From Lactobacillus kefiranofaciens (lineage in GTDB: Bacteria > Bacillota > Bacilli > Lactobacillales > Lactobacillaceae), in assembly GCF_900103655.1 (NCBI RefSeq), contig NZ_FMXC01000001.1, positions 62,001 through 126,000 of the forward strand: a DNA stretch of 64,000 nt, read 5' to 3'. A model generated the notes under the pieces. The model was not told the origin of the DNA. It was given only the letters and a program-made list of their open reading frames with translations, and did not search any database. Within the stretch, counting starts at the first letter, position 1. The number at the start of each line of letters is the position of its first letter. Shown in pieces: positions 7,738 to 40,412 of this stretch. Position numbers and translations under genes: made by a program.

Positions 7738-9768
7738 ATGATAGATAATGCATTATTTGCTCCTGTGACCAATTTAAAGGGCGTAGGGACAAAGACTGCG
7801 GCTGATCTTGGTAGTTTAGGCATTTATAGTATTTATGATTTACTCTTTTACTTCCCATTTCGCTATGATGAATTGCAGACATTGCCTCTAGACCAAATCA
7901 TGGACGGTCAAAAAGTAATGCTAAAAGGAATAGTTGCCACTGAGCCTTTTGTTAGTCGTTTTGGTTATAAAAAGAGTCGTTTAAGCTTCAAGATGAGAAT
8001 TGACCATGACATAATCATGGTCAATTTTTTTAATCAACCATGGCTAAAAAGCAAGATTGAAATTGGTCAAGAAGTTGCAATTTATGGTAAGTACAACGTG
8101 GCACGGCAAAGTCTATCTGCATTTAAGTTTGTCGCTGCTAAAGAAAATGACAGTGGCATTGCTCCGATTTACCCATTAAATCGTCATGTAAAGCAAAAGA
8201 AATTAGTTACTTTAATTAATTTGGCAATTGATGATTTTTTAGAGCAAGTTAAAGATATTGTGCCTAAAGAAATTAGACAAAAATATCGCTTATTGACGGA
8301 TCGAGAAATTATTCAAAAAATGCATCATCCCAATAATGGGCGTGAAGCAGAAATAGCAAAGCGAAGTGCGATTTTTCGAGAGTTCTTTATTTTTGAATTG
8401 CAGCTAGCTTTGTTGACGCGGAATGATGGTCAGCAGAAAGGTTATCCCAAAGATTATGATCTGAAGGAAATTGCTAAATTAACCAGCTCATTGCCGTTTG
8501 AATTGTCAGCAGATCAGAAGCAAGTAGTGAATGAAATTTTTGCTGATTTGCATTCGGAAAGACAAATGCGTCGTTTGCTCCAAGGAGATGTAGGTTCAGG
8601 TAAAACGGTTGTTGCAATTTATGCAATTTTTTCCGCCATTACTGCAGGTTACCAGGCTGCTTTGATGGTGCCGACCGAAATTTTAGCTACTCAACACTTT
8701 AAGAAAATAGATGAATTGCTGCGTCCATTAGGTGTAAGGGTAGCATTATTAACGGGGAATACTAAGACGCTTGAACGACGAGAAATTTATCGCGAGTTAA
8801 CAGATGGTACGATTAATGTGGTAATTGGAACTCATGCCTTAATTCAGAAAAATGTTATCTTCAAAAAATTAGGGCTAGTTATTATTGATGAGCAGCACCG
8901 CTTTGGTGTAGGTCAGCGTCAAGCTTTGATAAATAAAGGAGATAATCCAGATATTTTAGCGATGACAGCTACCCCGATTCCGCGAACTCTAGCCTTGACT
9001 GTTTATGGAGATATGACTGTATCTGAAATTCATCATCTGCCATCAGGCAGAAAACCAATTATTTCTGTCTGGAAAACTAGCAGTCAGATGAAGGATGTTT
9101 ACCAGCAAATGAAGGAGCAGTTAGCTCAAGGTTTTCAAATTTATGCGGTAACACCATTAATTACCGAATCAGAGACTCTAGATTTAAAAAATGCTGAAGA
9201 GTTACATCAAAAATTAAGTCATGACTTTCCAGATCAAAAAGTAGTGTTATTGCATGGTCAAATGCCCGGACCTAAAAAAGATGAAATTATGGAATGCTTT
9301 GCTAATGGCGACATTAATATTTTGGTTACGACTAGTGTAATTGAAGTTGGGGTTGATGTAGCTAATGCCAACATGATGGTCATTTATAATGCTGATCGTT
9401 TTGGTTTAAGTCAATTGCATCAACTTCGTGGTCGCATCGGTCGTGGTCAGACCCAGAGTTATTGTGTCTTTGTAGCTGATCCTAAAACTGACGCGGGGAA
9501 AGCTCGAATGAAGGTTATTGCAGCGACTAATGATGGCTTTAAACTAGCCGAAGAGGATCTAAAAATGCGGGGTGAAGGTGATCTTTTTGGTAAGGCGCAA
9601 TCAGGACTGCCTGAATTTAGAGTTGGTGATGTGGTTAATAACTACAATACTTTGGTTGTTGCCCAAAAGGTTGCCCGTGAATTGGTAAAAGCTGATCCTG
9701 GTTTGAAAGACCATAAAACTCTTAAACAAGTGCTAGAATATAAGCAGCTAGAGCAAAATAGAATTTAG
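7738..9768 (+). CDS. recG: ATP-dependent DNA helicase RecG
   Basis: Superfamily 2 helicase that remodels stalled replication forks and Holliday junctions. An N-terminal wedge/OB domain (about residues 1-240) is followed by the helicase core with GDVGSGKTVVA (Walker A), DEQHRFGV (DExH), MTATPIPRTL and QLRGRIGRG. I chose ATG 7738 (MIDNALFAPV, 676 residues), which matches the family N-terminus. A longer form from 7663 would overlap fakA by 71 bases with unrelated residues. The Shine-Dalgarno site is weak, so translation may depend on coupling to fakA. Confidence 0.95.
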   Translation: MIDNALFAPVTNLKGVGTKTAADLGSLGIYSIYDLLFYFPFRYDELQTLPLDQIMDGQKVMLKGIVATEPFVSRFGYKKSRLSFKMRIDHDIIMVNFFNQPWLKSKIEIGQEVAIYGKYNVARQSLSAFKFVAAKENDSGIAPIYPLNRHVKQKKLVTLINLAIDDFLEQVKDIVPKEIRQKYRLLTDREIIQKMHHPNNGREAEIAKRSAIFREFFIFELQLALLTRNDGQQKGYPKDYDLKEIAKLTSSLPFELSADQKQVVNEIFADLHSERQMRRLLQGDVGSGKTVVAIYAIFSAITAGYQAALMVPTEILATQHFKKIDELLRPLGVRVALLTGNTKTLERREIYRELTDGTINVVIGTHALIQKNVIFKKLGLVIIDEQHRFGVGQRQALINKGDNPDILAMTATPIPRTLALTVYGDMTVSEIHHLPSGRKPIISVWKTSSQMKDVYQQMKEQLAQGFQIYAVTPLITESETLDLKNAEELHQKLSHDFPDQKVVLLHGQMPGPKKDEIMECFANGDINILVTTSVIEVGVDVANANMMVIYNADRFGLSQLHQLRGRIGRGQTQSYCVFVADPKTDAGKARMKVIAATNDGFKLAEEDLKMRGEGDLFGKAQSGLPEFRVGDVVNNYNTLVVAQKVARELVKADPGLKDHKTLKQVLEYKQLEQNRI

Positions 9769-9786: not shown

Positions 9787-10788
9787 ATGAGAACAATTGC
9801 GATTGATGCTATGGGTGGTGAAAATGCACCTGAAGCGATCGTGAAAGCAGTATTAAAGGCAAAAACTGAATTGCCGGAAACCAAATTTTTGTTATTTGGT
9901 GATAAAGAGCAATTAAGAAATTTAATTCCAGCAAATCAAATCAGTGATCAACTTGGTGTTGTAGCCACTACAGAAGTGATTGCTGATGAAGATGAACCAG
10001 TGAAGGCAATTAGGCACAAAAAAGATTCTTCAATGGTCCAAGCAGCTAATTTTGTTAAAGAAGGCAAAGCTGATGCACTCTTATCTTTAGGTAATACTGG
10101 TGCACTTTTAGCCTGTGGCATTTTCATTATTGGCAGAATCAGGGGGATTACTCGTCCTGGCTTAATGCCAACTTTACCAGTAAAGAATAGTGATGAAGGC
10201 TTTAATATGGTTGATGTTGGTGCTAATGCCAAAAGTAAGCCGGAATATCTGCTCCAGTGGGCACAAATGGCTTCATACTATGCTAAAAAAATTCGTGAAA
10301 TTGAAAATCCTAGAGTTATGCTTTTAAATAATGGTGCAGAAAGCGATAAAGGCGATGAGGTACATCAAGAAGCATATAAGCTATTGAAAGATAGCAACTT
10401 AAACTTCTTAGGCAATATTGAGGGCAATGAATTGCTTTTAGGTAAGGCTGATGTCGTAGTGACAGATGGTTTTACTGGCAATGCCGTTTTAAAAAATATT
10501 GAAGGTACTTCTAGCGTCCTGCTTCATTTATTAAAAGATAGCTTGTTAAATAGTGGAATGATGACTAAATTAGGAGCTTTGCTGGTCAAAGGCTCATTAG
10601 CTGGTCTAAAGTCTAAATTTGATACAGCTAAGTATGGTGGTGCAGTTTTACTGGGAGTAAATGCACCGGTAGTTAAGACGCATGGTCGTTCTAATGAAAG
10701 GCCGATTTATTATACTCTTAAGCAAGTCGATAAGATGATTGCAGAAAATCTTGTTGCAGAGTTTAGAGATGAATTTGCTACAAAATAG
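9787..10788 (+). CDS. plsX: Phosphate acyltransferase PlsX
   Basis: Converts acyl-ACP to acyl phosphate, the acyl donor for PlsY in the first step of phospholipid synthesis. It begins MRTIAIDAMGGENAPE, carries the SLGNTGAL and VDVGANA segments typical of PlsX, and is full length at 333 residues. It sits between recG and acpP, as in other Firmicutes, although the fabD and fabG genes often found between plsX and acpP are absent here. Together with fakA upstream it links fatty acid activation to membrane lipid synthesis. Confidence 0.95.
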   Translation: MRTIAIDAMGGENAPEAIVKAVLKAKTELPETKFLLFGDKEQLRNLIPANQISDQLGVVATTEVIADEDEPVKAIRHKKDSSMVQAANFVKEGKADALLSLGNTGALLACGIFIIGRIRGITRPGLMPTLPVKNSDEGFNMVDVGANAKSKPEYLLQWAQMASYYAKKIREIENPRVMLLNNGAESDKGDEVHQEAYKLLKDSNLNFLGNIEGNELLLGKADVVVTDGFTGNAVLKNIEGTSSVLLHLLKDSLLNSGMMTKLGALLVKGSLAGLKSKFDTAKYGGAVLLGVNAPVVKTHGRSNERPIYYTLKQVDKMIAENLVAEFRDEFATK

Positions 10789-26396: not shown

Positions 26397-27264
26397 ATGG
26401 CTTTATTAATCGCTTTAATTAACATAGTAGGTTGGGTTTTGATCCCATTAACAGTAAAGGGCTCTCCTGCTCATCAAATTGCAGGGATGGGATTGGGTGC
26501 ATTCATTACTGCATTCATTACTGCATTTATTATTTATCTCTGTACTAGACCAGCCTTTGATGCTGCAACTTGGGGAGTAGCTTTCATTGCAGGGATGCTT
26601 TGGACAAATGGGACAATTCATCTCTTATACGCGCATAGGTGTTAGTGGGACTATTCCTTTATCAGCTGGTTTTCAGTTAGTAGGTAATTCATTGATTGGG
26701 GTTCTGATCTTTGGTGAATGGTCAACTGTTCAAGCTAAGATTATCGGTTTTATTGCTTTAGTTTTAGTAGTTGTAGGAATCGTTCTAAGTTCTAAGAGTG
26801 ATGACCAAGAATCTAGTAATGCTAATGCTAAAAATATTGCATTTTTGCTTGTCACTACAATTGGTTTTTGGATTTACTCAAGTTTTCCTAAGCTAATTGC
26901 CAAAAATATTAATCCTAACGTTAATGGCCTAGATTATATCTTGCCAGAAATGTTTGGTGTTTTAGTTGGTACGGTTGTATACATCATTGGTTCACATTCA
27001 ACCTTTGTATATAGAGGTAAGCTGTTGTGGCAAAATAGTATTGCTGGATTAGAATTCGGTATTGGTACCTTATTTTATTTGTTTTCGGTAAAGCAAAATG
27101 GGGTTACCAATGCATTTATTTACAGTCAGTTGTGCTCTGTCATTTCTGCCTTTGGTGGAATTTGGTTCTTGCATGAATCAAAATCTAAACGTGAGATGAC
27201 TTATATTATCATTGGTTTGATTTTTATTGTGGGCGGTAGCATCTTGACAGGTTTTGCCAAATAA
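26397..27264 (+). pseudogene. Broken GRP-family sugar uptake protein (GlcU/RbsU-like), frameshifted
   Basis: Drug/metabolite-superfamily sugar transporter of the glucose/ribose porter type. The first frame (26397-26645) reads LLIALINIVGWVLIPLTVKG and ends shortly after GMLWTNG. The rest continues in another frame from about 26605 (GQMGQFISYTRIGVSGT) to 27264. Intact relatives read G-L/M-L-W-x-I-G-Q-x-G-Q-F, so about 7-8 bases appear lost at 26600-26612. A 12-base tandem duplication (GCATTCATTACT, near 26499-26522) adds the repeat FITAFITAF in TM2. Ribosome binding site GGAAAG is present. The protein is unlikely to be made intact. Confidence 0.8.
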
Positions 27265-31443: not shown

Positions 31444-31493
31444 GTTATACTTGGGTAATTACTATATAATATAAATAAGGGTAGGTGATAATA

Positions 31494-32153
31494 ATGGATT
31501 ATCCGGAAAAATTAATTGCGGAGGTTATGCGACGCTCAAGAGGAATGAAATTAGAAGGCCTTAACTCAGGCAGCGGTCCACAGCATCCCTTGTTAATGAT
31601 TGTAGGAGAAGCCCCAGGAAGAAATGAAATAGTCAATAATATTCCTTTTAGTGGGAGTGCGGGAAAGGAACTGGATAAATCTCTTCGGCAAGTCGGTTTA
31701 ACTAGAAAGGATGTCTATATCACTAGTGCAGTTAGAAGTAGACCATTTGCGATCAAAAAAGTTTTTAGTAAACGAGAAAATAAAGAGGTTATTAAACGGC
31801 CTAATCGTAAACCGACGAAAAAGGAAATCTTAGCACATGCTCCATTTTTAGATTATGAAATTGATTATGCGCAGCCCAAAATAATAGTTACTTTAGGAAA
31901 TACTGGCCTTGAGAGGCTTTTAGGCCCAGGACATAGAATTTCAGCAGAGCATGGTAAAGTAATTGAAAATACGCCAATTTTAAAACTGGATGAAACAAAA
32001 AATGGTTATATTTAGTCTGATAAAAAATATACAATTATTCCAGAATATCATCCCGCTGCAATTTTCTATAATCGTAAATTGACAGAGGATATAATTAAGG
32101 ATTGGGAGATAATTAAACCTTATATAGCTAAAGAAAGGAAAAATAATGAGTAA
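31494..32153 (+). pseudogene. Uracil-DNA glycosylase family protein interrupted by an in-frame TAG
   Basis: Resembles the bacterial UDG superfamily (families 4/5 by pattern): VGEAPGRNE, PFSGSAGKEL, VYITSAVRSRP and VTLGNTGLERLLG. The frame hits TAG at 32013-32015 after ETKNGYI. It then continues open to TAA at 32151-32153 and encodes the expected C-terminal motif IPEYHPAAIFYNRKL, whose His is part of the active site. The interruption therefore removes a conserved catalytic element. Start taken at ATG 31494 with an AGGTG site; a GTG three codons earlier is possible. A truncated 173-residue product could still be made. Confidence 0.85.
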
Positions 32154-34370: not shown

Positions 34371-35849
34371 ATGAAAATATTTAGAAAATTAGGCTGGTTC
34401 TTTAAACAAGAGAAAAAACGATACATTGTTGGCATCACTTTTTTAGCCCTGACTTCATTAGCCAATCTTGTGCCGCCGCGAGTTTTAGGGCTAATGGCAG
34501 ATCAGCTTGATAAAGGCCATATTTCTTGGGGCGAATATGGAATGTTAATACTAGCCGTATTAGCAGCAGCTTTTACGCTTTATGTTTTACGTTATTTTTG
34601 GCGTAAGCAGATTTGGGGGGAGCTGCTGAATTGGAACGGCAAATGCGTTCTAAATTATTTAACCATTTTATGATAATGGATCGAACTTTTTATCAGCGCC
34701 ATCGAACGGGCGATTTGATGGCACATGCGACGAATGATGTATCAGCTATTCAAAATGTTGCCGGCGATGGGGTTTTGACTTTAGTTGACTCTCTAATTAT
34801 GGGTCTTTCAACGATGATCGCGATGATTATTTTTGTTGATTGGCGCTTAACCGTAATAGTTTTATTGCCATTGCCGTTTCTGGCATTAGGTGCATGGAAG
34901 TTTTGGACAATTAGTATCTTTTATTGCCTATATTTCTAATATGGTTTGGCCAATGTTTGCAATCGGGTATCTTTTCAACATTTTGGAACGAGGCAGTGCA
35001 AGTTATGATCGAGTAGAAGAATTATTAGATGAAAAGCCTCTTATTACAGATGCTCATGCCGATCAGACCATTACTTCTAAAGATTTACAAGGCGATTTGC
35101 ATTATGATATTAAATCTTTTGCATATCTTGATGAAAAAGATATTCCAGTTTTAAAAAATATTGAATTTACTTTGAAGCAAGGCCAAACTTTAGGTTTAGT
35201 TGGGCGTGTTGGTGCCGGTAAAACAACAATTATTCAACTATTGCTGAGAGAATTTGATCAGTATCAGGGGCAGATAACTTTGAATGGCAAAGACATTCGC
35301 AATATTCCACTAAAAGTTTTATTGGGGCAGATTGCTTATGTACCACAGAATAATTTTTTGTTTTCAACCAGTATCGGCAAGAATATTGCGTTTTCTTCTG
35401 AAAAAGCAAATAAAAGTGATGTGGCGAGTGCAGCCGAAAAGAGTGATTTGCATGATGATGTTCTTCAAATGCCGAAGGGCTATGAAACTTTAGTTGGTGA
35501 AAATGGTATTTCCCTTTCTGGTGGTCAGAGACAAAGAATGTCAATTGCTCGAGCTTTGTTAAAAGATAGTCAGATTTTAATCTTGGATGATGCTTTGTCC
35601 GCTGTAGATGCTAAAACGGAAACAGAAATTTTGTCTGCATTAAGAAAAGAAAGACAAGATAAGACGACATTGATTGCAGTTCACCGTCTGACGTCAGTGA
35701 TGGATGCCGATCTGATTTTAGCATTAAAAGACGGGCAAATCGTAGAGCGTGGCAACCATCAACAGCTATTAGCAGAAGATGGCTGGTATGCAGAAATGTG
35801 GTGCAGACAGGAATTACAAGCAAAGGTAGGTGAAGACATCAATGAATAA
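34371..35849 (+). pseudogene. Broken ABC half-transporter (YheI/LmrC-like), frameshift plus internal deletion
   Basis: Type IV ABC exporter half with N-terminal membrane domain and C-terminal ATPase. The frame runs from 34371 (RYIVGITFLALTSLANLVPPR) to a run of six G at 34615-34620. Seven would restore the family segment W-G-G-A-A-E-L-E-R, so one base is lost. The second frame covers RSKLFNHFMIMDRTFYQRHR to about 34900. Then about 100 residues of the usual membrane domain are missing and a third frame resumes at GQLVSFIAYISNMVWPM, running to 35849 with LVGRVGAGKTTIIQLL, LSGGQRQRM and ILILDDALSAVD. The LDD form is the degenerate site normal for this partner. Confidence 0.9.
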
Positions 35850-37635
35850 TGAAGAAAATCAGGAATCAGTTTGGGCAAAAGCTATTCCCTTTAAAGAACA
35901 AGTTGCAATTTTTAAACGATTGATGAAGTTCGTTAAAAAATTTAAATTTGAAATGATTATTGCCTTAGTGGGAGCCTTTATAGTCAGCATTATTAATATT
36001 CTTTTGCCTAGAGGGTTGCAGTATTTTTTAGATGTCTTTTTATTGCATCAGAGTGCGACTGTGCAGGTGATTTTGTTTGCTGGCTTTTTATATGCTTTAG
36101 GTTCAATTCTTAAGGCAGTTATTTAATTTATTTATCAATACTTTTTTGCATTAGGTTCAGAAAAAACACTTGAAAGTCTTAGACGGGCTTTATATCGTAA
36201 ATTGCATACGTTAGGAATGCGCTATTTCGATAAAACGCCTGCCGGCTCAATAGTATCTAGAGTCACTAATGATACGATGACCTTAAGCAATTTCTTGACA
36301 GTTCTATCAACTATTGTTATTGGTGCGTTTTCGGTGGTGACAGCACTTGTTGCCATGTTTACTACAAATGTGATCGCTGGTTGGCTGATTTTAGCCTTTA
36401 TACCTATCTTGCTTTTGGTAATTTGGCTATATTCACAAAAGAGTTCGCGTTTATATCGTAATTATCGTGAACACTTAAGCCGAATTAATGCTAATTTAAA
36501 CGAATCAATTGAAGGCGTCTCAATTATTCAGCAATTTAATCAAGAACATCGAATGACTAAAAATTTTGAAGGAGAAAACGGCGGTTTAATGAATACACGT
36601 TTTAATATGATTCGAATTAATTCATTGCTTCTGTCGCCTTTAACCAGTTTGCTTTACTCATTGGCTTTAGCAGTGTCATTAATGTACTTTGGCTTTCCAC
36701 TGCGAGAAACTTTTGTGCCTGCTGGCGTAGTTTATGCATTTTCACAATATATTTCTCAACTGTTTAACCCGATTTCAACAATGATGGATCAAATGACCTT
36801 CTTCCAAGACGGGATTGTTGCAGGTAAAAGAATCTTTAGAATCTTAGATGATACGCAATATGAACCTGCGCAAAATGAGCAGCAGGACTTGACTATTACT
36901 CAGGGCAAGATTGAATTTAAGCATGTTAGTTTTTCTTATGATGGTAAAAATGAAATTTTGCACGATATTTCATTTACGGTCAATCCAGGAGAAACTTTAG
37001 GAATTGTGGGGCATACTGGCTCAGGTAAGAGTTCGATTATTAATGTTATGATGCGTTTTTATGAATTCAGCCAAGGGCAAATTTTAATCGATGGCGTGGA
37101 TATAAAAAAATATCCTAAAAAGGAATTGCGTCAAAAATTAGGCTTGGTTTTACAAGAGCCATTTATGTTTTATGGTGATATTTCATCTAATATTCGTTTA
37201 TACAATAAAAAGATTACTGATCAGCAAATTAAAAAAGCCGCAAAGGCAGTACAAGCTGATCAGTTTATTGAGCAGATGCCAGGAAAATATCATGCTAAAG
37301 TAATTGAAGGTGGAGAAGAACTAAGTTAAGGTCAAAGACAACTGATTTCATTTGCTAGAACTTTGGTAACTAATCCAAAGGTCTTGGTGTTAGATGAAGC
37401 AACAGCCAATGTAGACACCGAAACTGAGACTTTGATTCAACAAGGACTTAAGCGTCTGCGTAAAGGTAGAACCACTTTAGCAATTGCACATAGATTATCA
37501 ACGATTGCCGATGCAGATCAGATTATTGTTTTGGATAAAGGGCGTATAATTGAACGAGGCAATCATGAAGAGTTGTTAAAGAAGAAGGGCTATTATTACA
37601 ATCTGTATACTTTACAGAATAATGAAAATAAATAA
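35830..37635 (+). pseudogene. Broken ABC half-transporter (YheH/LmrD-like), two in-frame stops
   Basis: Partner half-transporter starting 20 bases inside the previous gene. The frame is intact throughout except for two TAA codons. The first, at 36124-36126, follows LGSILKAVI, within the membrane domain. The second, at 37327-37329, replaces the middle residue of the ABC signature LS-x-GQRQL. Otherwise there is a full membrane domain, Walker A GHTGSGKSSI, Walker [13 protein letters not shown] with catalytic Glu, and IAHRLSTI. Without the stops it would be about 601 residues, the usual length. Both stops are one C-to-T change from CAA (Gln), a common residue in the signature position. Confidence 0.9.
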
Positions 37636-37649
37636 TTGAAGGTGAAAAA

Positions 37650-39734
37650 ATGAGAAGATATTTTGCAGTTCGTGGTGGTGCTGGTGATGTTGCTGAACCT
37701 GACGTTAATACTAAACCACAAGATAACCTATATTTAGCAGTTAATTCAGAGTGGCTTTCTAAGGCTGAAATTCCAGCTGATCGTACTTCAACTGGAGTGA
37801 ATTCCGAACTAGATATTCGCATTGAAGATAGAATGATGAAAGACTTTGCCAATATTGCTGCAGGCAAGGAAGAAATACCTAAGGTGAGAGATTTTGATAA
37901 AGCAATTGCTTTGTACAAGATTGCAAAAGCTTTTGTCAAGAGGGATGCCGACGGTGCTCGCCCAATTCAAAATGATTTGCAAAAGATTTTAGATTTAAAT
38001 AATTTTACTGATTTTAAGCAAAATGCAGCTAAATTATTTATAGGACCATACGCATTGCCAGTTGTTTATGATGTTGATGCCGATATGAAGAACACTGACG
38101 TAAACGTGCTTTATTTTGGTGGACCAGGAACATTTTTGCCAGATACAACCACTTATCAAACTTCAGATGCAAAAAAACTATTAGATATTTTGCAAAAGCA
38201 AAGTATTAATTTGCTGATGATGGCTGGTCTGGGTAAGACTGAAGCAAAAACATATGTCGAAAGCGCTTTAGCTTTTGATCAAAAGCTATCCAAAGTAGTT
38301 AAATCTACTGAAGAATGGTCAGATTACGCTGCTATCTATAACCCGGTTTCATATGCTGATTTTATTGCAAAATTCAAGTCATTTGATATGGCCGATTTCC
38401 TAGATCAGATTTTACCAGTTAAACCAGATCGCGTGATTGTGATGGAGCCGCGTTTTCTTAAGCATGCTGAAGAATTGATCAATGAACAAAACTTTGACGA
38501 GATCAAGGGCTGGATGTTAGTTAAATATATTAACAATGTAGCTAAATATTTATCCCAGGAATTTCGTGAAGCAGCGTTTCCGTTTGATCAAGCTATTTCA
38601 GGTACGCTAAAAATGCCTTCACAGATCAAGCAAGCTTACCGTTTAGCTAATGGTGCTTTTGATGAAGTCGTAGGTATCTACTATGGTCAAAAGTATTTTG
38701 GTGCTGAGGCAAAGCATGATGTGGAAGACATGATTCATAAAATGCTAAAGGTCTACGAAGAGCGAATCAAAAGTAATGATTGGCTTTCTGAAGATACTAA
38801 GAAAAAGGCGATTGTTAAATTAAATGCTTTAGTATTAAAGATCGGCTATCCAGAAAAGATTGAAGAAATCTATGATTTACTGCAAGTTGATCCTGCAAAA
38901 AGTTTATACGAAAATGAAGCGGCTATGGCAACAGTTAGAACTAGATATGAAATGAATAAATTAACTAAGCCAGTTGATCGCTCAGTATGGCTGATGCCAG
39001 GGAATTTAAACAATGCGTGCTATGATCCGCAAAGAAATGATTTAACTTTCCCAGCTGGAATTTTGCAAAAACCATTTTACGATATTCATCAATCTCGCGG
39101 TGCAAACTATGGCGGTATTGGTGCAACCATTGGTCATGAAGTTTCACACGCTTTTGATAATAGTGGTGCTAAATTTGATGAACATGGAAATATGAATAAT
39201 TGGTGGACCAAAGAAGACTTTGCTGAATTTAACAAGCGTGTCGGTCAAATGGTCGATATCTTTGACGGCTTGCAATATGGCCCGGCTAAAGTTAATGGTA
39301 AGCAAGTGGTTGGTGAGAATATTGCTGACCTAGCTGGTCTTGCTTGTGCTGTACAAGCAGGCAAGAATGATGGTGTAGATTTGAAAGACTTGTTTGAAAA
39401 TTATGCCAGAAGCTGGATGCAAAAGCAGCGTCCAGAAGCAATTAAAACGGAAGTACAAGTTGATGTTCATGCACCACAGCCTACAAGAGTAAATATTCCT
39501 GTGCAATGTCAAGATGCCTTTTATGAGGCTTTTGATGTTAAGCCGGAAGACGGCATGTGGCTTGATCCAAGCGTTATTAGCTCCACCTTGTTGACGGGTG
39601 ATGCCATGAATCAAAGCTACACCATCATTCTTGAGGTATTTAGCAACATCATTGAAATATTCACCCAAGTTCTCAGAACCAACATGTTCAAACATACCAA
39701 CGGAAGTTACGTAATCCCATTGTTGATCACCTAA
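37650..39734 (+). CDS. pepO: Endopeptidase PepO (M13 family) with a replaced C-terminus
   Basis: Zinc endopeptidase of the neprilysin family that degrades oligopeptides in the cytoplasm. It has the substrate motif NNACYDP, zinc motif HEVSH at residues 496-500, and third-ligand segment GENIADLAG. The family body runs to about residue 640 (DGMWLDP). The last ~54 residues ([20 protein letters not shown] onward) are antisense cfa sequence. Family members normally end about seven residues after this point, with a conserved C-terminal Trp that is lost here. The ATG has a GAAGGTG site. Activity of the altered protein is uncertain. Confidence 0.88.
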
Positions 39735-40412
39735 TTCACGGTAATCTTCAAGTTTAACTTCAGCTACATCTTGCAAATTTTCATCGTAAATCTTCTTTTG
39801 AACGAGTTTGTACTGTTCTTCACTTAAAGTTACGCCGGTAACTTTTAAACCATATTCCTTAGCAGCAGTAAGCATTAAAGTACCCCAGCCACAACCGATA
39901 TCAAGCAAAGTTCTGCCCTTTTGAGGATTTAGTTTATTTAAAATATGGTGAACTTTAGCAATCTGTGCTTTTTCAAGGTCATCTTTATTATCATCGGTGA
40001 AGTAGGCACATGAGTAAGTCAAAGTAGGATCAAGCCACATTTCGTAGAAGTCGTTACCAATATCGTAATGTCTTTGTACGTCTTCTTCGCTTTGCTTTTC
40101 CGTATGTTTTAATTTAGGTAAAAATTTACGGAATTTTAAAGAGCGTATAAAACTGTCTGCACTCTCATAAGCACCATCGATTACTTTTTGAATGCTGCCA
40201 TGAATTTCTATCTTTTTATACATGTAGCCTTCGCCTAAAGCTAGAGAAGCATTTTTAATGATCTCGCTCATAGGGATCTTTTCATTGAATACGATCTCAG
40301 CTTCAGGAGTGCCATTACCATAAACTTCGCTTTTGCCGTCCCAGTAAGTTACTTTAACGGGAAAAGGGAAGGACTTGCTAAGCATCATTTTGTAAAATGT
40401 TTTTTCTAACAA
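39330..40412 (-). pseudogene. cfa: Cyclopropane-fatty-acyl-phospholipid synthase, 3' truncated and fused to antisense pepO
   Basis: SAM-dependent enzyme that turns unsaturated membrane acyl chains into cyclopropane chains. The genuine part (about residues 1-283) includes [39 protein letters not shown] and FEHVGSENL and stops after GGANNAWI. From there the frame reads antisense pepO ([16 protein letters not shown] onward) for ~77 unrelated residues. About 100 residues of the usual C-terminal catalytic region are missing, so loss of function is likely. TTG start at 40412 with a GGAGG site on the minus strand. Confidence 0.88.
39562..39569. other. Deletion junction joining pepO and cfa tail to tail
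   Basis: TTGATCCA is shared by both sides: it reads as the end of pepO (leading into the usual DPEDR-type codons) and, on the other strand, as the expected continuation of cfa after NAW-I (W-I-N). Both genes lose their 3' ends exactly here, pointing to a deletion through 8 bases of microhomology. Confidence 0.75.

Follow-up and report, generated by a model that had tools for sequence, protein, structure and literature searches.

In a 64,000-nucleotide stretch of the Lactobacillus kefiranofaciens genome (hereafter the window), the convergent ends of pepO on the forward strand and cfa on the reverse strand abut at the octamer TTGATCCA (39562-39569). We interpret this locus as a gene-disrupting chromosomal deletion between the two genes at a short direct repeat, with a probability of roughly 0.85. 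This is ordinary gene decay through a known kind of event, and the sole feature beyond what such decay would lead one to expect is an inverted repeat straddling the junction. The junction represents one clear step of decay and predicts a simple trait, namely a lactobacillus without cyclopropane fatty acids. These lipids are thought to serve lactic acid bacteria against acid, cold, and drying. If the junction occurs species-wide in L. kefiranofaciens, it would be a genetic argument for examining the membrane robustness of kefir starters.

The junction and the two fused reading frames

The pepO open reading frame (37650-39734, +) encodes 694 amino acids, of which 640 codons are native and the last 54 residues foreign. 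The cfa open reading frame (39330-40412, -) encodes 360 amino acids, with 283 native codons followed by 77 foreign residues. Past the junction, each frame reads the antisense strand of the other gene according to the open reading frame list and homology, as an earlier note on this DNA had claimed, and the homology ends place the changeover at 39562-39569. We rejected a real gene fusion, since each tail is simply the opposite gene read in antisense. The features of the locus are as follows.

37650..39569, + strand: native part of pepO, 640 codons, M13 endopeptidase (open reading frame; Pfam M13_N and M13; 640 gap-free codon columns with relatives)
39570..39734, + strand: tail of the pepO frame, 54 foreign residues, antisense to cfa (open reading frame and homology ends)
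39564..40412, - strand: native part of cfa, 283 codons, cyclopropane fatty acid synthase (open reading frame; CMAS positions 2-175 of 273; residues 1-283 of PDB 5z9o)
39330..39563, - strand: tail of the cfa frame, 77 foreign residues, antisense to pepO (open reading frame and homology ends)
39562..39569, no strand: deletion junction TTGATCCA, common to both sides (genus search and locus comparisons)
39330..39734, no strand: 405-base antisense overlap of the pepO and cfa frames, without the long hairpin of relatives G060 and G003 (open reading frames and hairpin scans)

Pfam and NCBIfam identify the first protein as M13 endopeptidase PepO and the second as CMAS / cyclopropane fatty acid synthase, with the NCBIfam equivalog matches lying below their curated cut-offs. 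We searched 75 genomes of the genus, including the source genome, with a 701-base query spanning the junction. Among the matches listed, those to pepO mostly stopped at query positions 369-371, with some weaker ones stopping earlier, and those to cfa began at 363, 366, or 368. The furthest strong matches listed ran to 370 for pepO (G013, G005) and from 363 for cfa (G003, G060), and their overlap is exactly 39562-39569. The octamer TTGATCCA occurs 10 times in the window against 3.05 expected (0/100 shuffles reached 10). It is therefore a common word here, and the oddity is the junction rather than the octamer itself. No direct repeat of at least 10 bases was found between 39300 and 39800 in the present sequence, in keeping with the loss of one copy of the repeat.

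The source genome (2.28 Mb) is a draft assembly of 84 contigs, which leaves room for the junction to be an assembly or sequencing artefact. We give this explanation very little credence. The junction sits inside a 236-kb contig (C43) with the expected neighbors on both sides, no other contig was found to carry the missing piece, and an 8-base repeat should be far too short to mislead an assembler.

Intact relatives, the missing segment, and the breakpoint homology

In relatives, pepO and cfa are intact and convergent. A search with Cfa returned 65 loci, of which we used 18 (all Lactobacillus) together with 16 stretches fetched from genomes, for a total of 34. The comparison of the two sides drew on 18 of these 34 (15 pepO sides and 15 cfa sides from 14 genomes; second copies of the same contigs were omitted). 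Seven loci with a cfa match and no pepO match were first omitted and then added, bringing the cfa side to n = 22. PepO has 647 amino acids in L104, L108, L099, L100, and four further relatives, and Cfa has 391-398 in the intact relatives. The exception is L. kitasatonis (G028, L103), where cfa is open for 322 amino acids and its match falls one base short of the query, possibly through an independent frameshift or a sequencing error.

The gene order in G060 (L108) is that of the window: two ABC transporter genes, pepO, cfa, an acyltransferase gene, and a methyltransferase/GIY-YIG gene, with both pepO and cfa intact. The earlier note had proposed comparison with strains in which both genes are intact as a check. 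In relatives, the sites corresponding to the junction proved to be 399-421 bases apart in the five convergent loci measured (L108 of G060, 421; L104 of G003, 410; L110, 412; L109, 399; L113, 421) and 2,244 bases apart in G005 (L099), where a DDE transposase gene lies in between. In the two relatives checked, L108 and L104, a hairpin of 16-17 pairs just past the pepO stop falls inside the stretch that is missing from the window; near the window junction there is no such hairpin, merely two weak sites of 5-6 pairs. Counts of terminator-like hairpins were close to those of shuffled DNA (2 against 1.6 in L108, 1 against 1.0 in L104, and 2 against 0.9, sd 1.0, in the window), so the difference is one of stem length, 16-17 against 5-6 pairs.

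A search of the source genome with the L108 version of the missing stretch found no counterpart, giving only five matches of 19-31 bases (E 0.44-0.82). Since the genes are intact and convergent in relatives and this search located no second copy of the lost DNA, one deletion explains both truncations. Two claims of the earlier note, that a single deletion joined the convergent genes and that the DNA between them is gone, are thereby supported.

We envisage an ancestor with intact, convergent pepO and cfa separated by a short intergenic stretch carrying the hairpin. Replication strand slippage, or the joining of two broken ends, would then have acted between short direct repeats, one among the final pepO codons (Leu-Asp-Pro) and the other within cfa (antisense of Trp-Ile). 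This would have removed one copy of the repeat and all DNA between the copies, or about 0.4 kb if the interval held no insertion. Such insertions exist: G005 carries the DDE transposase gene, L. gallinarum has IS66 transposase genes beside each gene, and 16.8 kb separate pepO and cfa in G010 among the matches listed. The lost segment may therefore exceed about 0.4 kb. That the interval takes insertions would also suit a different history, in which a mobile element between pepO and cfa deleted its flanks on transposing. We consider this improbable, as native pepO directly abuts native cfa with no mobile element sequence at the junction, and the short junction homology is a better fit to slippage. 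Deletion at a short direct repeat in this locus resembles known bacterial microhomology deletions in the loss of one repeat copy and the intervening DNA and in a junction without a mobile element. It differs from them in that two convergent genes were hit at once, leaving mutual antisense tails, and in the inverted repeat straddling the junction.

The earlier note had further stated that the continuations of both genes share the 8 bases. The homologies do meet on the same 8 bases; their full identity in the ancestor is less certain. Exact TTGATCCA was present on the pepO side in 5/15 loci and on the cfa side in 3/22 (L. gallinarum, G010, and L. acetotolerans), while 10 of the 22 cfa sides had TTAATCCA, one base off TTGATCCA. 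Only L. gallinarum had the exact octamer on both sides, and its two genes lie on different contigs. With an ancestor like G060, the shared bases would be ATCC only. Random breakpoints placed in the intact L108 and L104 gave microhomology of at least 8 bases in 55 and 97 of 400,000 trials, and of at least 4 bases in about 2%; because real sequences of relatives were used, the word bias of TTGATCCA is partly accounted for. dS between the window and all eight relatives compared exceeded 1 for pepO and cfa alike. The lineage is thus remote from these relatives, which makes the ancestral letters uncertain, and for the same reason the age of the deletion could not be dated by dN/dS. Given these comparisons, the true homology at the deletion was probably 4-8 bases, and an ancestor with the full 8-base homology is likely.

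Consequences for PepO and Cfa

PepO. Relative to its 647-residue counterparts, PepO lost its last 7 residues, including a conserved Trp, and gained 54 foreign ones. All 15 pepO loci of relatives (14 genomes) end in Ile-Trp-stop and the window pepO does not, so the earlier note was right about the loss of the conserved C-terminal Trp. The M13 profile matched the window PepO to position 201 of 205 and both paralogues in the genome to 205 of 205. The sequences HEVSH and ENIAD are present in the window translation; we take HExxH and ExxxD to be the zinc-binding motifs of M13 peptidases. Compared with the PepO of lactic acid bacteria, an M13 endopeptidase (PDB 4iuw), the window protein keeps the whole catalytic domain with HEVSH and ENIAD, and differs in the replacement of the last seven residues, Trp included, by the 54-residue tail. 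A literature search on neprilysin with a C-terminal tryptophan found no paper. PepO is probably impaired. Protein change was not faster than in G060 (dN 0.09-0.11 in both), and PepO may therefore still be used. Of the two M13 paralogues, the C66 copy is intact and ends in Val-Ile-Trp, and it may cover the role of PepO. The other, C75 (46565-47134, L116), has an internal TAA where C66 has Gln; with the truncated window pepO, two of the three M13 genes in the genome are thus damaged.

Cfa. The loss was larger for Cfa. The earlier note had put it at about 100 residues; the truncation is real, and the measured loss is 110 of about 393 residues relative to the G003 protein. The window protein matched DUF7884, and CMAS (PF02353) merely at positions 2-175 of 273. 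Lost residues were mapped by alignment to 5z9o, 7qos, and 6bqc. Residues 1-283 of the L. acidophilus cyclopropane fatty acid synthase (PDB 5z9o) align end to end with the native part; the rest of the chain (110 residues relative to G003, whose Cfa matches 5z9o 1-393) has been swapped for 77 unrelated residues. The remnant keeps the bicarbonate Glu and His. The Tyr (residue 320 of L104 Cfa; Tyr317 of E. coli) is absent, and the dimer interface region (the equivalent of E. coli Ser294-Phe314) and the last helix fall within the lost part. The roles of the three bicarbonate ligands (Glu, His, and Tyr) and of the homodimer interface are taken from the excerpted text of PMC11387697. The lipid-binding domain and SAM-binding fold, represented by DUF7884 and CMAS 2-175, are kept.

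Because the bicarbonate Tyr and the dimer interface are missing, the Cfa remnant should be inactive. A PF02353 profile search for a second cfa in the genome gave one match only, at 2-175 of 273. The only cfa found is therefore truncated, and the strain is predicted to be without cyclopropane fatty acids in its membrane, which we regard as probable. Across the 75 genomes of the genus, source genome included, CMAS was full-length in 61, absent in 5, and a weak partial match in 7 (two just over the family cut-off). In G039 the CMAS match ends at a contig end, and the source genome (G000) is alone among the 75 in having a strong match that is cut inside a contig.

Lineage-specific replacements were counted at sites where the other seven sequences agree, using 8 sequences over 640 (pepO) and 283 (cfa) columns with L. 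kitasatonis dropped. The window cfa had 11 such replacements, G060 0, G003 4, and the rest 0-4. By the same criterion, the window pepO had 13, G060 8, and G003 13. The excess in cfa over pepO gave a Fisher p of 0.03 against G060 and 0.20 against G003. For dN/dS, the L. kitasatonis cfa reading began late, and 214 codon columns were used there. The replacement counts hint at relaxed selection on cfa and do not suggest it for pepO.

Both proteins could in principle still function despite their new tails. The lack of acceleration in pepO would fit this, and so would the naturally occurring class of 'small CFAS' proteins, which are truncated at the C-terminus and of unknown role, exemplified by Bacillus cereus A0A164GXD1 in the excerpted text of PMC11387697. 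Because this class exists, some residual function of the window Cfa stays conceivable. According to the same excerpts, small CFAS resemble the window protein in keeping the N-terminal lipid domain and SAM site while lacking the bicarbonate Tyr, the dimer interface, and the last helix. The window truncation, unlike theirs, results from a deletion, carries a foreign tail, and occurs in one of 75 genus genomes rather than in a conserved protein class. With a catalytic ligand and the dimer interface gone from Cfa, and with its 11 lineage-specific replacements against 0 in G060 and 4 in G003, we think it unlikely that both proteins remain functional. Among the titles and abstract openings listed for L. 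kefiranofaciens combined with cyclopropane, pepO, or cellular fatty acids, none points to the junction or to the species' own cyclopropane fatty acids, and the Cfa named in the excerpted text of PMC9558504 belongs to L. delbrueckii.

The inverted repeat and the decay of surrounding genes

The junction is straddled by an inverted repeat located by repeat search.

39362..39384, + strand: left arm, 23 nt (22/23 matching), in pepO
39611..39633, - strand: right arm, 23 nt (22/23 matching), in cfa

This was the most exact of 14 inverted repeats in the window (at least 20 bases, within 1 kb). When the pepO and cfa coding strands of eight relatives (only part of the L. kitasatonis cfa included) were compared with one mismatch allowed, the longest match was 13-14 bases, and in 40 synonymous shuffles it was at most 19. 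Both arms encode KNDGV, and with the peptides fixed and the codon usage of 16 window genes, 22 or more matches arose in 208 of 200,000 draws. Scanning 20 loci (311 kb including the window, some overlapping) for pairs separated by 60-1000 bases turned up one other such pair. That pair is a perfect 23/23 repeat in L105 (G010), at 9102-9124 and 10053-10075, about 0.93 kb apart within the pepO-cfa insertion block, and it may represent the ends of an IS. The present junction segment, folded as single-stranded DNA, had a z of -4.7, and none of 200 shuffles folded equally well.

These numbers raise the possibility of inverted-repeat-assisted template switching, in which a replication fork folded or switched strands, copied one arm onto the other, and deleted the loop at a short direct repeat. 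The 22/23 match against 13-14 in the eight relatives and at most 19 in shuffles, its rarity in the codon draws and the 311-kb scan, and the stable fold all speak for it. We nevertheless hold it doubtful. The repeat was found after the fact and may be a coincidence, its sharpening could postdate the deletion, and plain short-repeat slippage needs no inverted repeat. In G003, moreover, both peptides are already KNDGV and the arms match at 18/23; since KNDGV is common to both peptides there, part of the match is inherited or due to chance. The fuller proposition, that the deletion and the 22/23 repeat are footprints of one replication template-switch event in which an arm was rewritten and the loop shortened at a short direct repeat, we rate as slightly more doubtful still. 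As a small natural example, the repeat could be used to study how deletions may arise from short repeats in convergent genes, and a plain deletion at the short direct repeat remains our preferred reading of the junction.

Genes upstream of pepO are also decayed.

34371..35849, + strand: first ABC transporter gene, disrupted by a 1-base frameshift near 34619 and a 287-base internal deletion near 34903 (name from an intact relative)
35842..37635, + strand: second ABC transporter gene, with two in-frame TAA codons (36124-36126 and 37327-37329; Gln, CAA or CAG, in 8/8 aligned genomes)

In comparison with L100, TTGG is shared at the junction of the 287-base deletion (length from alignment ends), which would make it the second deletion at short homology within this gene group. 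The two TAA sites were compared over 12 and 11 locus rows from 8 genomes, some with two rows. A type-4 uracil-DNA glycosylase gene at 31485 is ended by a TAG at 32013-32015 where 4/4 relatives have TGG (Trp). All three nonsense changes compared in the window are consistent with C-to-T or G-to-A, and weakened uracil repair could have favored them, with three changes being too few for a test.

The window has a G+C content of 36.5%, and the genome of the L. kefiranofaciens type strain one of 37.2% (PMC8540521). In a sugar transporter open reading frame (26587-27264), the PF06800 profile match starts at position 67 of 280, and the start of this frame may therefore be broken. Elsewhere in the genome, contig C53 holds a 4.9-kb stretch that shares 99% identity with an L. 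kefiranofaciens subsp. kefirgranum HL1 plasmid. For an IS982 copy, identity is 99.2% to its counterparts on two L. kefiranofaciens plasmids, 99.4% to one from Latilactobacillus sakei, and only 75% to one on a third L. kefiranofaciens plasmid.
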